Shown here: positions 1-6,604 of the stretch, one piece after another
How positions within the stretch are numbered: position 1 is the stretch's first letter
How the letters are laid out: each line of letters opens with the position of its first letter
NCBI GenBank assembly: GCA_031281085.1
Contig: JAITFW010000042.1
Location: 1-35,073 of the forward strand
Reading direction: 5' to 3'
DNA from: Chlamydiales bacterium
GTDB lineage: Bacteria > Chlamydiota > Chlamydiia > Chlamydiales > Rhabdochlamydiaceae
DNA length: 35,073 nt
The notes under the pieces: generated by a model
The model's database searches: none
Told to the model about the DNA's origin: nothing
Seen by the model: the letters and a program-made list of their open reading frames with translations, nothing else
Position numbers and translations under genes: made by a program

Positions 1-266
1 GACAAAAACCTTAAAAGTCAAAGATTAATACCGGTTCCTTTACCCTCAATCAAATTTGGGATGAAAGTTCTTAATCTAGCTAAAATGATAAAATAAGTTG
101 TGGTGTAAAATTTATTTTAAATCTAAAAGGAGCTTGATTTTTAGAATTTTACAGTTATTTTTATCAATGTGATAAAAAAAATTATAATCATTGCTATTCG
201 TTGAATTAAATCGCTAATTTGCTATGAATAAGCTGACAAACCGTTTTGATTTTTTCAGGATCGTAT
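1..266. other. Upstream region of sucA
   Basis: This AT-rich stretch contains no convincing gene. A possible sigma-70-type promoter lies at TTGAAT (201-206), 16 bases, TATGAA (223-228). A weak AGGA ribosome binding site sits just upstream of the ATG at 267. The first 100 bases could be the tail of a gene outside the window, but I see no recognisable protein in them. Confidence 0.4.
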
Positions 267-2918
267 ATGGCTTTTTCTTCTCTTTCTATTCCTAACCTAT
301 GTTTTATAGATGATCTTTATCAAAAATTCATAGATGATCCCTCCCAAATTGCACCTTCCTGGCATGCTTTTTTTCAAGGAATGCATCTAGGATTAAGCCA
401 ATCTATTACAGGATTAGACGAGGAACAAAGAAGGGTTAAGCATCTCATCGATGCTTACCGCACATATGGTTATCTATTGGCTTGCTTTAATCCTCTCAAA
501 ACCCCTCCAGATCTTATCTATGAATTGGACCTCAAGACACTTGGGTTTACGACAAATGAGTTAAATAAACCTTTCCCTACCTGCAATCTTATGAAGGAAA
601 AACAAGCCCCTTTAAAAGACATTCTCGATCTGCTCAAAAAAATCTATTGCTCTAAGATCGGTATAGAATATAAGAACCTTAGAAACCATGAATTAGAGAC
701 ATGGATCCAAAATAGATTTGAATCTTCATTTACATTAGATAAACAGCAAAAGATACTTATTTTAAAAAATTTAAATAAAGCAGAGCTATTTGAATCTTTT
801 CTAAATACAAAATACGTAGGACAAAAGCGCTTTTCCTTAGAGGGAGCAGAAACTCTGATTCCCATGTTATCTTTTTTAATGGAACAAGCGTCTTTAAGTG
901 GTATAGATGAAGCAGTCCTCGGTATGGCCCATAGAGGTAGGCTCAATGTGCTAGCTAATATTATCCATAAAAGCTATTCCTCTATTTTTAGAGAATTTGA
1001 GGAAAATTATATCCATGAGGAACTTGAAGGTTCTGGGGATGTAAAATATCATCAAGGCGCACACGGCATTTTTACCACCTCTTTAGGAAAAAAGATCTCA
1101 GTTACCCTTGTTGCAAATCCCAGCCATCTTGAATCGGTAGATCCTGTAATAGAAGGAATAAGCTACGCTAAGGCAGCAATGAGTAAAAAAGATGTCATTT
1201 CTATTCTCATTCATGGGGATGCTTCTTTTAGTGGACAGGGTGTGGTTTATGAAACCATGCAGCTTTGTAAACTAGACGGCTATCAGACAAGAGGAACCAT
1301 TCATATTATTATCAACAATCAAATCGGTTTTACCACAAATCCCGAAGAAGCACGCTCTACTCCTTATTGTTCAGATCTTGCCAAAACATTTAACTGCCCT
1401 GTTTTTCACGTAAATGCAGAAGATCCTGAAGGATGTATACAAGCTATCATTCTTAGCATGGAAATACGACATATATTTGGATGCGATGTGTTTATTGATC
1501 TTAATTGTTATCGCAAATACGGCCATAATGAAAGCGATGAACCTCTTTTTTCACAACCACTCCTCTATGCTAAAATTAAAGAGAGAAAATCTATTCGCTC
1601 TCTATTTTCTCAAAGCTTACTTCGAGAAAATATCATTCAAGAAAAAGACATAAAGAGCTTAGAAGAGAACTTTAAAAACCAGCTTCAAGAAGCTTTGCAA
1701 AAAACACCTTCCCTTATTGTTAAAAAAAAAATTCAAAATTCCATTTCTTTATCAGAAATGGATACTAAGGTCCCTTTAAAAACGTTAGAAGCGATCGGTA
1801 AAGGGCTTTATACTTATCCAAAAGGCTTAAATCTTAATCCTAAAATTAAAAGACTTCTTCAAGAAAGAGAGCAAATACTACAAAGCGATCCTACATCATC
1901 TTCTTTAGATTGGGCAACAGCAGAACAACTTGCCTACGCAAGTTTACTCTCTCAAAAAATTGCTTTGCGCTTTTCTGGCCAAGATGTTTGCCGAGGAACG
2001 TTTTCTCATAGACATGCTGCGCTGATTGACCAACTCAATGAAAAACGTTATTTTCCACTCAATCACATTGCAGAGTCTCAAGCTGAATGCGCATTTTTCA
2101 ACTCTCCTTTATCAGAATACGCTGTTCTAGGGTTTGAATTTGGATTTAGTTTAGCCTCTTCTAAAGCCTTGGTCATTTGGGAAGCCCAATTTGGTGATTT
2201 CGCAAATGGTGCTCAGATTATTCTCGATCAGTATTTAGCTCCTTCAGAACAAAAATGGGGAATCGTATCCAATTTAGTTCTGATGCTCCCTCATGGCTAT
2301 GAAGGACAAGGACCAGAGCATTCCTCCGCCCGTATAGAGCGTTTTTTGCAATTAGCTGCTCAAGAGAATTTAAGAATCGCTAATTGCTCTACTCCTGCAC
2401 AGCTTTTCCATCTTCTGCGCGCACAGGCTCTATGTCCTATAAAAAAGCCCTTGGTTCTTTTTACCCCTAAAGCTTTATTGCGCAATACTCTATGTAAATC
2501 CAGCTTAAATGAGCTTGCAGAAGGGAGATTTCATGAAGTTCTAGAGGATCCCCTACTAGAAAAAGACGCTAAGCTATTGTTATTTTGCAGTGGAAAAATC
2601 TATTACAATCTCATTTTAGAGAGAGAAAAACAAAATCAACCATGCGCAATCATACGTTTAGAACAACTCTATCCTTTTCCCAAAAATATCCTCCAAAAAA
2701 TTTTAGCCAAACACCCTAATGCTAGCTGTCGTTTTGTGCAGGAAGAGCCTAACAACATGGGAGCTTGGGAAGCTTTGCACTTTGTATTTGATGAGTTACT
2801 TGGAACAAAAAGGCCAATCGAGTATATCGGAAGGCAAAGAAGCGCATCACCTGCTGTAGGCTCGTATGCTGTACATAAACAACAATTAGAAGAGCTGCTA
2901 AAACAAACTTTTGCTTAA
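267..2918 (+). CDS. sucA: 2-oxoglutarate dehydrogenase E1 component
   Basis: E1 is the thiamine-diphosphate-dependent decarboxylase of the 2-oxoglutarate dehydrogenase complex, turning 2-oxoglutarate into the succinyl group passed to SucB. The protein is 883 residues. Its N-terminus has the short E1o segment (FIDDLYQKF, then APSWHAFF), which in this family contacts the rest of the complex. The dehydrogenase core follows with MAHRGRLNVLAN, a GDASFSGQGVVYE cofactor-site motif and a NNQIGFTT segment. The C-terminal transketolase-like part shows GHEGQGPEHSS-type residues (here GYEGQGPEHSSARIERFL) and ends with RSASPAVGSYAVHKQQ. A TTG start at 246 is possible, but the ATG at 267 has AGGA in front and begins directly with the conserved region. 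It is followed by sucB 19 bases later, so co-transcription is likely. Length and motifs make this near certain. Confidence 0.96.
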   Translation: MAFSSLSIPNLCFIDDLYQKFIDDPSQIAPSWHAFFQGMHLGLSQSITGLDEEQRRVKHLIDAYRTYGYLLACFNPLKTPPDLIYELDLKTLGFTTNELNKPFPTCNLMKEKQAPLKDILDLLKKIYCSKIGIEYKNLRNHELETWIQNRFESSFTLDKQQKILILKNLNKAELFESFLNTKYVGQKRFSLEGAETLIPMLSFLMEQASLSGIDEAVLGMAHRGRLNVLANIIHKSYSSIFREFEENYIHEELEGSGDVKYHQGAHGIFTTSLGKKISVTLVANPSHLESVDPVIEGISYAKAAMSKKDVISILIHGDASFSGQGVVYETMQLCKLDGYQTRGTIHIIINNQIGFTTNPEEARSTPYCSDLAKTFNCPVFHVNAEDPEGCIQAIILSMEIRHIFGCDVFIDLNCYRKYGHNESDEPLFSQPLLYAKIKERKSIRSLFSQSLLRENIIQEKDIKSLEENFKNQLQEALQKTPSLIVKKKIQNSISLSEMDTKVPLKTLEAIGKGLYTYPKGLNLNPKIKRLLQEREQILQSDPTSSSLDWATAEQLAYASLLSQKIALRFSGQDVCRGTFSHRHAALIDQLNEKRYFPLNHIAESQAECAFFNSPLSEYAVLGFEFGFSLASSKALVIWEAQFGDFANGAQIILDQYLAPSEQKWGIVSNLVLMLPHGYEGQGPEHSSARIERFLQLAAQENLRIANCSTPAQLFHLLRAQALCPIKKPLVLFTPKALLRNTLCKSSLNELAEGRFHEVLEDPLLEKDAKLLLFCSGKIYYNLILEREKQNQPCAIIRLEQLYPFPKNILQKILAKHPNASCRFVQEEPNNMGAWEALHFVFDELLGTKRPIEYIGRQRSASPAVGSYAVHKQQLEELLKQTFA

Positions 2919-2937
2919 ACTGAAGATAAGGTAATCC

Positions 2938-4041
2938 ATGGCAAATGAGATTAAAATCCCTAATATGGGTGAATCTGTTTCTGAAGCAATCATCGGTGAC
3001 ATCCTGAAACCATCTGGTAGCTTCGTTAAACAAGATGACGAAATCATAGAACTAGAAACAGATAAGGTAAATCAGGTTTTATATGCTCCTGAAAGCGGAG
3101 AACTCACTTTGCTGGTTAAAAAAGGAGAGATCGTCAAGATAGGACAAATAATTGGAACGATTAACCCTCAAGCTGTAGAGCAAACCCTTAAGTCTTCTGA
3201 TAAAGAACCTCTTAAATCACCAGAGCCAACTTTTCCTCCTCCTTCTTCCAATGAGAAGGGCAAATTTACTGCATCTGATTTTGTTTCTCACTTGCAACAA
3301 CCACCCACTCCTACTCAATCAACTCCTATTGTAGAAAAAGAAACGAATACTACCCGTAAACAGATGAGTTCTTTACGTAAAATCATTGCACAAAAGCTTG
3401 TAGAAGTGAAGAATACAACAGCTATGTTAACCACCTTTAACGAGGTGAATATGAAAAGCGTCATCACTATCAGACAAAAAGAGCAGGAATCTTTTCAAAA
3501 AAAATATGGGATTAAATTAGGGTTCATGTCTTTTTTCATTAAAGCCTGTGTTGCAGCTTTAAAAGAGATTCCTGAAGTAAATGCTTATATCGATAAGGAA
3601 GAGATCGTTCTCGTTCAAAGCTACGACATCTGTGTTGCTGTTTCTACAGATCGTGGTTTAATGGTTCCTGTCATTAGGTCTTGTGAACAGCATAGCTTTG
3701 GAGAAATAGAAATACAACTAAGCACTTTTGCCCAAAAAGCACGAGATGGCTCCATCAATGTAGATGATTTAAAAGGAGGCAGTTTCACAATTACTAATGG
3801 AGGTATTTTTGGGTCTCTTTTATCGACTCCCATTCTCAATCCTCCTCAAAGTGCAATTTTAGGAATGCACTCCATCGTCAAACGCCCTGTTGTTGTGGAC
3901 GATGAAATCGTGATCCGTCCTATGATGTATTTAGCGCTTAGTTATGATCATCGTCTCATTGATGGCAAACAAGCTGTGCTTTTCTTAAAGCATATTAAGC
4001 AAATGTTAGAGGAACCTTCCCGTTTACTTCTCGACTTGTGA
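2938..4041 (+). CDS. sucB: Dihydrolipoamide succinyltransferase (E2o)
   Basis: E2 transfers the succinyl group from E1 via lipoyl-lysine to CoA. Residues 1-75 form a biotinyl/lipoyl domain with the ETDKVN motif, so Lys43 is the probable lipoylation site. A Pro/Ser/Thr-rich linker covers about 80-115. The acyltransferase domain starts near [12 protein letters not shown] and ends with SYDHRLIDG, placing the catalytic His and Asp at about 338 and 342. At 367 residues the protein is shorter than E. coli SucB (about 405). I cannot find a normal peripheral subunit-binding domain between linker and core, only a short [11 protein letters not shown] segment that may be its remnant. From memory, chlamydial SucB is similarly short. 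An AAGG ribosome binding site precedes the ATG. The sucB stop lies 5 bases before the chosen lpd start. Confidence 0.95.
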
Positions 4042-4046
4042 GGAAT

Positions 4047-5444
4047 ATGACAGATTCATTTGATTTAATTGTGATCGGCTCTGGGCCTGGCGGGTATGTA
4101 GCTGCAATAAGAGCTGCTCAATTAGGATTTAAAACAGCATGTATCGACAGGCGAAAGGAACCAGGAGGAACTTGTTTACACGTAGGCTGCATCCCTTCCA
4201 AATCTTTGTTATCTTCCTCTGAATTGCTGTGGAAGATAAAAGAGACAAGCATTGCTCATGGAATCACTATTGCTCAACCATCCATCGATTTTACGCAAAT
4301 GATGGCTCGTAAAACACAAATTATCCAGTCTTTTAGCCAAGGGATTACGAGTTTATTTAAAAAACATAAGATCAGTTCTTACACAGGAGAAGCTAGCTTC
4401 CTATCTCCTGCTGAAGTCTTGGTTAAAAATGCAAGCGAAACAACGCAATTACAAGCTCCATTCATTCTTATTGCTACAGGTTCAGAACCTGTTCAGCTTC
4501 CTTTTTTGCCCTTTGACGAAACACAAATTCTTTCTTCCACAGGCGCCCTCTCCCTTAAAGCCATTCCCAAAGACCTACTCATAATAGGAGCGGGTGTGAT
4601 TGGAGTAGAACTAGGATCTGTCTACAATAGACTAGGAACTAAGGTGCAAATCATTGAACTCCTCGATCAAATTTGTATAGGATTTGATCGTCAATTGAGC
4701 CTAGAGCTGAAAAAAGATCTAGAAAAACAAGGCATTACATTTCATCTCTCTTCTAAAGTTATGGACGCAAAAATTGCGTCTAATCAAGTTTCTTTACAAG
4801 TAGAGCAAGCTCAACATATACAAACTTTTTCAGCAGAAAAAGTTCTGGTTGCTATTGGAAGAAAGCCTTATACCCAAGCACTAGGTCTTGAAAAAATAGG
4901 GGTAAAACTATCTGCGAAAGGATTTATTGAAACCGATGAAATCTTTCGCAGCAATATCCCAAATATTTTTGCCATTGGAGATGTCACTGAAGGCCCTATG
5001 CTTGCACATAAAGCATCTGAAGAAGGCATTGCAGCAGTTGAAATCATGAAAGGTCATAAGCCTCAACTAAACTATATGGCTATCCCCAATGTTGTCTATA
5101 CATACCCAGAAATGGCATCGGTGGGATTAACAGAAGAAGAAGCTAAAAGGCACCACCTCATGCTAAAAACAGGTAGTTTTCCCTTCAAAGCTAACTCAAG
5201 AGCAAAGTGCACAGGAGAAACACAAGGGTTTATAAAGATTATTGCCGAGGAAAAAAGCGAAAGGATTATAGGAGTGCATATTATAGGAGCTCATGCCTCT
5301 GAGTTAATCGCAGAAGGAGCTGTTGCTATACAAAAAAACTTCTGTATAAAAGACCTAGTTCATGCTATTCGTGCTCATCCCACCCTATCAGAGGCAATGA
5401 AAGAAGCTGCTTTAGATTTAGAAAAGCGAGCACTTCATAAATGA
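4047..5444 (+). CDS. lpd: Dihydrolipoamide dehydrogenase (E3)
   Basis: E3 is the FAD/NAD flavoenzyme that re-oxidises dihydrolipoamide on the E2 subunit. The 465-residue protein starts with the FAD-binding GSGPGGYVAA motif. The redox-active pair follows in GGTCLHVGC (Cys43 and Cys48 from the chosen ATG). The NAD-binding GAGVIGVELGS lies mid-protein, an AIGDV FAD site comes later, and the C-terminal AHPTLSE carries the catalytic His/Glu. A GTG at 4038 overlaps the sucB stop and could be an alternative start adding three residues. I prefer ATG 4047 because GAGGA precedes it and the N-terminus then matches the family. Its place behind sucAB suggests an E3 dedicated to this complex. In C. trachomatis, as I remember, lpdA is not next to sucAB. 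Confidence 0.95.
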   Translation: MTDSFDLIVIGSGPGGYVAAIRAAQLGFKTACIDRRKEPGGTCLHVGCIPSKSLLSSSELLWKIKETSIAHGITIAQPSIDFTQMMARKTQIIQSFSQGITSLFKKHKISSYTGEASFLSPAEVLVKNASETTQLQAPFILIATGSEPVQLPFLPFDETQILSSTGALSLKAIPKDLLIIGAGVIGVELGSVYNRLGTKVQIIELLDQICIGFDRQLSLELKKDLEKQGITFHLSSKVMDAKIASNQVSLQVEQAQHIQTFSAEKVLVAIGRKPYTQALGLEKIGVKLSAKGFIETDEIFRSNIPNIFAIGDVTEGPMLAHKASEEGIAAVEIMKGHKPQLNYMAIPNVVYTYPEMASVGLTEEEAKRHHLMLKTGSFPFKANSRAKCTGETQGFIKIIAEEKSERIIGVHIIGAHASELIAEGAVAIQKNFCIKDLVHAIRAHPTLSEAMKEAALDLEKRALHK

Positions 5445-5462: not shown

Positions 5463-6029
5463 TTAGTAACTTTGTGACTTACCGCAACCACAAGATGTTT
5501 TTGCATTAGGGTTGCTGATTTTAAATCCAGCACCGTTTAAACCTTCTGTATAATCGATTTCAGAACCGATTAAACGATCTACAATGGTTTTTTTTACATG
5601 AATTTGCACACCATGAGATTCAAATACTCGATCATCTTCTTCCGCTGTCTGAGAATAGTCTAAAACATACTCAAATCCATTACATCCCGCTGCGCGATCA
5701 GCAAAACGCAAGCCCCAATGATCTTTACCTTCTTCTTTTAAAATCTGGCAAAACTTCTCAGCAGCACGCTTAGTCAATGTAATTGTTGTAGGATCGAGTT
5801 TTTCTGCTAAAACACCATTTAATCTTTCGACTAACTGTTCAATCTGTTCTTTCTCAAAACCATGACCTAGCATTCCACCTTCAAGGGTTTCCCATGTAGC
5901 AGCGCCACATCCAACACAATGTAAACCCATATTGGTCATTTCTTGAGCTAACTTTTGGCTTTTATGAGGAAAAGAAGATAAAATTTCTTCAATTGTCATT
6001 TCTTTCGCAATCTTTTTTTCTTGAGACAT
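5463..6029 (-). CDS. DUF1858 domain fused to A-type Fe-S carrier (IscA/ErpA-like)
   Basis: This 188-residue protein joins two domains. Residues about 10-72 look like DUF1858: MTIEEILSSFP, then a CVGC pair (Cys38, Cys41) and a helix-rich tail. Proteins with this domain are usually small and linked to redox or Fe-S functions. Residues about 79-188 are a complete HesB/IscA-type carrier with AAGCNGFEY (Cys115), GLNGAGFKISNPN and the C-terminal CGCG (Cys180, Cys182), so all three cluster-binding cysteines are present. A-type carriers deliver Fe-S clusters to apo-proteins. Normal members are about 105-125 residues, so the N-terminal addition is notable. The ferredoxin gene ends 13 bases upstream, which suggests one transcript. 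A likely client is the aconitase in this window (inference). The carrier domain is certain; the DUF1858 call is by motif. Confidence 0.9.
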   Translation of the reverse strand: MSQEKKIAKEMTIEEILSSFPHKSQKLAQEMTNMGLHCVGCGAATWETLEGGMLGHGFEKEQIEQLVERLNGVLAEKLDPTTITLTKRAAEKFCQILKEEGKDHWGLRFADRAAGCNGFEYVLDYSQTAEEDDRVFESHGVQIHVKKTIVDRLIGSEIDYTEGLNGAGFKISNPNAKTSCGCGKSQSY

Positions 6030-6042
6030 ACATACACTTTTT

Positions 6043-6306
6043 TTAATGTTTAATCTTTACAGAACCACTTATTATCTTACACTGACAAGCCAGGCGCTCG
6101 CAACACAATTCTCCTAAGAAATCTTGTTCTTCTTGAGTAAATTCCGATAAATTTTCCATACCTTCCGTTACCTCAATCACACAAGTTCCACATACACCTT
6201 CGGTACAAGCAAAAGGAACTCCTGCATCCTCACATGCTTCTTGAATAGGAGAACCCTCTTCAAGAGTTTTTTCCTCATTTGTGTTTTCGAAAAGTAATTT
6301 AGCCAT
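6043..6306 (-). CDS. fdx: [2Fe-2S] ferredoxin
   Basis: This small electron carrier of 87 residues has plant/adrenodoxin-type cluster ligands: Cys34-x4-Cys39-x2-Cys42 in ACTEGVCGTC and a fourth Cys74 in RLACQ. The ligand spacing and the acidic surface are typical of a soluble bacterial ferredoxin. A purine-rich GGAAAGG lies before the ATG. It sits directly upstream of the DUF1858/A-type carrier gene, which supports a role in Fe-S assembly or in supplying electrons to Fe-S enzymes. C. trachomatis has a comparable small ferredoxin (CT059, from memory). The electron donor and acceptor cannot be read from the sequence. Confidence 0.93.
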   Translation of the reverse strand: MAKLLFENTNEEKTLEEGSPIQEACEDAGVPFACTEGVCGTCVIEVTEGMENLSEFTQEEQDFLGELCCERLACQCKIISGSVKIKH

Positions 6307-6412: not shown

Positions 6413-6604
6413 TTAGTTTAAAGAACTCTCGTCTGGATATTCCACTAAAAGCTCTTCCATAGCAAATTTTAAAGTGCTTATTCCTTCTAGGAATCCGCAA
6501 CGTATAAGCATCTCATTAATTTGAGTATACTCTGTTTCAAGTTGATCAACTTGACTTTCTAACCTCGCTAATCGAGCTCTGAGTTGATGATCTGTCTTGT
6601 CCAT
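6413..6604 (-). CDS. Small coiled-coil hypothetical protein
   Basis: I do not recognise this 63-residue protein. The first half (about residues 6-38) is a predicted coiled coil with heptad-like LRARLARLESQVDQLETEY. The second half has a single Cys in RCGFLEGISTLKFAMEELL and an acidic tail. It is preceded by a strong GGAAGGGG ribosome binding site about nine bases before the ATG and followed by a good terminator, so a real gene is likely. There is no signal peptide or membrane segment. It could be a small adaptor or a conserved chlamydial protein of unknown function; nothing in the context says which. Confidence 0.7.
   Translation of the reverse strand: MDKTDHQLRARLARLESQVDQLETEYTQINEMLIRCGFLEGISTLKFAMEELLVEYPDESSLN

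Follow-up and report, generated by a model that had tools for sequence, protein, structure and literature searches.

A DUF1858 module fused to an A-type iron-sulfur carrier beside a ferredoxin gene in Chlamydiota

The fusion gene and its surroundings

The window, by which we mean the whole 35,073-nucleotide stretch of DNA that was analysed, belongs to a 1.3 Mb chlamydial genome (G000; 98 contigs, 97.9% complete) and carries a gene in which a small CxxC-containing module precedes an A-type Fe-S carrier domain, Table 1. A ferredoxin gene ends 13 bp before it on the same minus strand, and the two may be co-transcribed. A short ORF lies 5' of the ferredoxin gene; of the 52 loci with a similar ORF, 50 have it upstream and in the same orientation, and we found for it no Pfam family under E 0.01 and no convincing profile family among the Pfam and TIGR models. 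From the other side, three plus-strand ORFs (246-5444), which we read by eye as sucA, sucB and lpdA, converge on the fusion gene. Of the 126 loci read, many of which have short flanks, 60 contain a relative of the third ORF, lpdA-like by eye.

Table 1 Features of the fusion locus in the window
Feature	Position	Strand	Remarks
Fusion gene, DUF1858/TIGR03980 module + A-type Fe-S carrier	5463..6029	-	188 aa, stop codon included
DUF1858/TIGR03980 module, residues 7-71	5817..6011	-	TIGR03980 52.5 bits; 2k5e Z 10.1
CVGC motif, Cys38-Cys41	5907..5918	-	both Cys invariant, 110/110 fusions
Interdomain linker, residues 72-82	5784..5816	-	11 aa in 104/110, 12 aa in 6/110 fusions
A-type carrier domain, residues 82-185, predicted cluster-ligand Cys116, Cys180, Cys182	5475..5786	-	PF01521, TIGR00049, IscA 1s98
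[2Fe-2S] ferredoxin, 87 aa, directly upstream, same direction	6043..6306	-	Fer2 41.6 bits
63-aa ORF 5' of ferredoxin, possible member of unit	6413..6604	-	similar ORF in 52/126 loci

The initial annotation, made from the sequence of the window, had read the N-terminal region as DUF1858, and this is borne out by TIGR03980 and by the fold, though the window protein itself lies 3 bits under the Pfam cut-off. Against TIGR03980, the 'redox disulfide domain', whose family name makes it a neighbour of hybrid cluster protein, residues 7-71 score 52.5 bits (cut-off 44.95), and against Pfam DUF1858 (PF08984) the score is 29.0 bits, just below the membership cut-off of 32.2. Across the phylum PF08984 exceeds its cut-off in 67 of 151 genomes, and TIGR03980 is matched at E <= 0.001 by all 74 members of our alignment. 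An AlphaFold2 model built from these 74 phylum sequences (mean pLDDT 87, pTM 0.73, with low confidence at residues 179-188) matches in its N-terminal half the NMR structure 2k5e (Z 10.1, 73 residues, rmsd 4.0), and phmmer links residues 5-73 weakly to 2k53 (E 0.0009) and 2k5e (E 0.0028). Since 2k5e is a small helical fold, we place more weight on the sequence match than on this fold match.

The C-terminal part (residues 82-185) scores 58.6 bits against PF01521 (cut-off 26.3) and 102.3 bits against TIGR00049 (cut-off 58.8), and the corresponding half of the model matches IscA 1s98 (Z 15.9, 97 residues, rmsd 1.9). By its profile scores, its C...CxC cysteines and its IscA fold the domain is an A-type carrier in the wide sense, cluster transfer itself being predicted. 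Its best-scoring named relative is ErpA, and all three equivalog models score it below their cut-offs (ErpA 95.4 against 117, IscA 84.1 against 150.6 and SufA 78.4 against 136.2 bits). A CVGC-bearing module ahead of a complete carrier with three cysteines had been noted at the outset, and Cys38, Cys41, Cys116, Cys180 and Cys182 are indeed all present in the window protein. The accompanying statement that A-type carriers are normally single-domain proteins agrees with passages of PMC2682760 (Vinella and others), whose single-domain definition leaves out the window protein with its N-terminal DUF1858 module. A Pfam scan of the fusion protein showed no Nfu domain (PF01106).

The upstream protein matches Fer2 at 41.6 bits (cut-off 21) and stays far below the equivalog cut-off for ISC-type ferredoxins (TIGR02007, 22.9 against 132.1 bits). 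Six of its cysteines are nearly invariant in the alignment, where a [2Fe-2S] site would require four: Cys25, Cys34, Cys39 and Cys42 occur in 124 of the 124 sequences with a letter at these positions, Cys74 in 125 of 125 and Cys76 in 124 of 125.

Distribution and conservation of the fusion

We searched 151 Chlamydiota genomes with the window protein. Most of these are drafts; absence from a single genome therefore means little, and only clade-wide absences are used below, with counts that ignore relatedness. A match was obtained in 117 genomes, of which 110 hold the full-length fusion, one per genome and spread over 16 family codes, six hold a bare DUF1858 module and one (G072) has DUF1858 elsewhere. 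Each of the five cysteines (38, 41, 116, 180 and 182) is invariant in 110 of 110 fusions, and the spacer between N71 and I83 measures 11 residues in 104 of them and 12 in the other 6. The unit with a [2Fe-2S] ferredoxin that had been proposed for the window, where the Fer2 match lies 13 bp away, recurs throughout: the ferredoxin is the same-strand upstream neighbour in 109 of the 110 fusion loci, the contig of the remaining one (L056) ending there, and the gap between the two genes has a median of 12 bp (range -40 to 204). The fusion of module and carrier next to a ferredoxin is a trait of most chlamydia-like bacteria.

The initial annotation had suggested looking for the same fusion in other genomes, and had named a sequencing error joining two genes as one of two findings that would overturn it. 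That A-type carriers are usually single-domain (passages of PMC2682760) might invite the suspicion that two genes were joined in this way or by gene prediction, but the fusion is uninterrupted in 110 genomes, with the same frame, the same cysteines and a near-constant linker, which refutes this explanation and leaves it with practically no probability.

PF01521 is found in 109 of the 151 genomes, as a single match in 108 of these, and the query with the window protein adds G115 as well as a divergent second copy in G113. A second A-type sequence was not found in 106 of the 110 fusion genomes; extra copies or fragments occur in G068, G113, G097 and G064, those of G064 and G097 being fragments. 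The fusion protein is the sole A-type carrier in most genomes that have it. The second copies of G113 (L076:2948-3568) and G068 (L077:5523-5924) are divergent, have no CxxC module and are both directly followed by a gene for an EamA-type transporter. Because these two copies do without it, some A-type proteins of the phylum have no need of the module.

A further variation was seen in family f4, where 10 of 24 fusions (L128, L121, L122, L097, L099, L124, L115, L130, L089 and L108) carry 35-69 extra N-terminal residues rich in Cys-Cys pairs (MSCCS... and SSCCSAPKK-like repeats), some of them also His-rich, giving the tail a metallothionein-like appearance.

One could imagine that the DUF1858 module binds a metal or cluster and relays it to the A-type domain, with no disulfide cycling and with the ferredoxin acting elsewhere. 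The f4 tail looks metal-binding and would be in line with such a role, as would the SufT-DUF1858 fusion known from other bacteria (passages of PMC4982691), whereas the tail is missing from the other 100 of the 110 fusions, including that of the window, and the module itself offers only two invariant cysteines, a small number if a monomer is to hold a cluster. We consider this relay somewhat unlikely.

Beyond the survey set, one contig scan returned 17 full-length fusion loci, 15 labelled chlamydial, one (L018) labelled 'bacterium' and one (L006) Verrucomicrobia; the last is so by record label only and has its counterpart, G077, within the Chlamydiota set. As the scan was built solely on patterns of the window protein, distant fusions would escape it. 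Among plasmids, 196 records were obtained, only one of which covered 80% of the query. Two of the records, H2 and H1, were inspected and rejected as fusions: each is an ordinary carrier (annotated lengths 321 and 345 bases) whose match extends upstream of the gene. Of the other 194 records, 13 were inspected as listed matches.

In the literature searched we found neither a description of DUF1858 fused to an A-type carrier nor a tested function for DUF1858. The passages seen on DUF1858/TIGR03980 proteins describe no fusion to an A-type carrier, and among the terms sought in PMC7144353, a survey of A-type proteins, no passage concerned Chlamydiae or fusions. According to passages of PMC2682760, a survey counting single-domain A-type carriers only, PVC bacteria are almost devoid of them; the Chlamydiota fusion is one reason why such single-domain counts can mislead.

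Lineages without the carrier domain and candidate clients

Two groups of genomes are without the carrier domain. The first is family f3, probably the Chlamydiaceae, an assignment for which gene content is among the grounds: in none of its 22 genomes (about 1.0-1.4 Mb) is there a fusion or a match to PF08984 or PF01521, and 21 of them keep the ferredoxin. The second consists of the eight genomes, all from family f5, that alone have an [FeFe]-hydrogenase, with a PF01521 match in none of the eight. They would fit the Anoxychlamydiales (family SM23-39), which are described in passages of PMC8242063 and PMC9816063 as hydrogen-producing with a truncated TCA cycle. In six of the eight the ferredoxin is followed by a bare DUF1858 ORF of 71-83 aa, which keeps its CxxC and ends at the domain junction, and no remnant of an A-type domain was seen in the 600 bp beyond these ORFs in the six genomes. 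Of the remaining two, G017 has the ferredoxin only, and G072 has neither the ferredoxin nor the ferredoxin-DUF1858 arrangement. The other 11 genomes that have no fusion come from various further families or are incomplete drafts.

Two side observations concern these loci. In G072 (96% complete), where no match to the SufBD core, the NifU C-domain, the A-type domain or the fusion-linked ferredoxin was obtained, the locus L075 has a DUF1858 gene followed by DUF2249 and DUF438. Furthermore, a conserved ORF of about 150 aa with no Pfam family stands 3' of the ferredoxin or bare DUF1858 gene and 5' of a HemN/HemW-like radical SAM gene in L083, L084 and L085 and in the bare-module loci L069, L070 and L073, radical SAM and HemN_C having been identified by Pfam for L083 only.

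As the hydrogenase genomes share a family code with fusion-bearing ones and the fusion spans 16 family codes, the carrier domain appears to have been lost in them, a direction drawn from these two facts and not from a tree. In a tree of ferredoxin and DUF1858 the six bare-module genomes fall on one side of a branch, and a topology that groups them with the fused f5 genomes passes the AU test (p-AU 0.82) and has the higher likelihood; in a SufB tree, whose branches are long, the six do not fall inside f5. The two absences of the carrier amount to two events at best. All six bare-module genomes lack the NifU C-terminal domain (PF01106), compared with 7 of the 110 that have the fusion; its absence from the six may reflect a single event because they are related. 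SufBD is nearly universal (147 of 151 genomes).

Since six hydrogenase genomes keep ferredoxin and DUF1858 alone, the module has a tie to the ferredoxin besides that to the carrier, which suggests that the ferredoxin is its partner. The same persistence of a module beside the ferredoxin in 6 genomes, and of the ferredoxin without both domains in f3, would also be expected if the fusion merely equalised the amounts of two proteins, with the DUF1858 part acting for the ferredoxin in some other pathway and the carrier domain working by itself. Such an arrangement is unlikely in our view: a linker of 11-12 aa in 110 of 110 fusions is tighter than a passive tether requires, and both CxxC cysteines are kept in all of them.

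The carrier-less groups also bear on which enzymes the carrier might serve. In E. coli, maturation of IspG/H depends on A-type carriers (ErpA), which the cells cannot do without in air (passages of PMC5040110 and PMC2682760), and in six of the seven f3 loci read (L079-L081 and L166-L168, not L085) ispG is located 3' of the ferredoxin gene, its identity as GcpE resting on Pfam for L079 and on position for six f3 genomes. Both facts could point to a dedicated kit for maturing and reducing IspG/IspH, in which the carrier gives the cluster and the ferredoxin the electrons. IspG fails as the client, however: a GcpE match is absent from 30 of the 110 fusion genomes, the window's included, and yet IspG is kept where the carrier has gone (21 of 22 f3 and 7 of 8 hydrogenase genomes). 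A dedicated kit is accordingly very improbable. Within the window's own family, f1, the GcpE match is absent from 18 of the 36 fusion-bearing genomes (G000 and 17 others), and the MEP route may therefore have been lost in these.

Aconitase, in turn, was matched in 0 of 22 f3, 0 of 8 hydrogenase and 93 of 110 fusion genomes, the other 17 fusion genomes having no match; the model used, TIGR01341, picks up weaker relatives as well, and its cut-off is exceeded in only 50 of the 101 genomes with a match. Its overall link with the carrier (Fisher p 1e-13, from counts that ignore relatedness) is driven by the f3 and hydrogenase groups, and outside both carrier-less groups it is not significant (93/17/8/3, p = 0.39). 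As sole client aconitase thus holds in the two carrier-less groups and fails outside them. We infer that the carrier serves oxygen-exposed [4Fe-4S] enzymes generally, and that anaerobes and TCA-poor lineages can do without it.

Proposed role and comparison with known systems

The original suggestion, of a carrier with an in-built step of redox chemistry or cluster handling, stands as far as the fusion is concerned, which exists, is out of the ordinary and goes with a ferredoxin. The redox step itself fits the sequences in that the CxxC is invariant, the linker fixed and a bare CxxC module kept beside the ferredoxin, and may be regarded as a plausible reading of them. The mechanism we put forward, tentatively and at somewhat short of an even chance, is that the sole A-type carrier has a CxxC module built in, and that electrons of the ferredoxin reach the carrier through this module. 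The ferredoxin would be co-expressed with the fusion, dock on the DUF1858 module and donate electrons to it, and the CxxC pair would hand these on to the A-type dimer. There they could either keep Cys116, Cys180 and Cys182 reduced, or drive the coupling of two [2Fe-2S] clusters, which would come from a SUF/NifU scaffold, into one [4Fe-4S] cluster, to be delivered to oxygen-exposed enzymes such as aconitase. Passages of PMC9313013 describe such a reductive coupling of two [2Fe-2S] for ISCA1-ISCA2, which assemble [4Fe-4S] with electrons supplied by FDX2. In addition, DUF1858 has been fused independently to the Fe-S maturation factor SufT (S6 architecture, n = 4; passages of PMC4982691), a fusion that by analogy supports a role of DUF1858 in cluster maturation.

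One might go further and speculate that DUF1858 is generally a ferredoxin-dependent thiol reductase module of Fe-S carriers, which in Chlamydiota was welded to the carrier as a one-chain bacterial counterpart of the mitochondrial ferredoxin-ISCA system for [4Fe-4S] assembly, and of which the anaerobic chlamydiae lost the carrier half and kept the ferredoxin-linked half. We regard this generalisation as rather doubtful; if true, the thiol-reductase reading would assign a role to a domain that is widespread and so far has no known function. Late Fe-S delivery in a phylum of obligate intracellular bacteria appears in any case to run through one DUF1858-carrier protein, and related genomes provide a natural dissection into full fusion, bare module and ferredoxin alone, which opens the role of DUF1858, a small CxxC domain, to direct test and gives a bacterial setting in which to ask how A-type carriers obtain electrons for [4Fe-4S].

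Among known systems, ErpA, IscA and SufA resemble the fusion protein in the C-terminal domain, the fold (IscA Z 15.9) and the three cysteines, whereas the fusion has an extra N-terminal CxxC module and scores under their equivalog cut-offs. In NfuA the partner domain is Nfu, which sits at the end opposite to that taken by DUF1858 in the fusion, whereas the partner in the fusion is DUF1858 and no Nfu domain was found. Passages of PMC2682760 describe NfuA as likewise a two-domain protein with a PF01521 domain. DUF1858/TIGR03980 proteins, among them SufT-DUF1858 and DUF1858-DUF2249 (DrpB), have the same CxxC module with another partner domain, and SufT-DUF1858 likewise joins this module to Fe-S maturation (passages of PMC4982691). 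We know of no DUF1858 module in the ISCA1-ISCA2 system, and FDX2 is a different type of ferredoxin from the one linked to the fusion. The functional parallel that we propose is nevertheless with this mitochondrial system, ISCA1-ISCA2 with FDX2, in which A-type carriers are fed by a [2Fe-2S] ferredoxin to make [4Fe-4S] (passages of PMC9313013).
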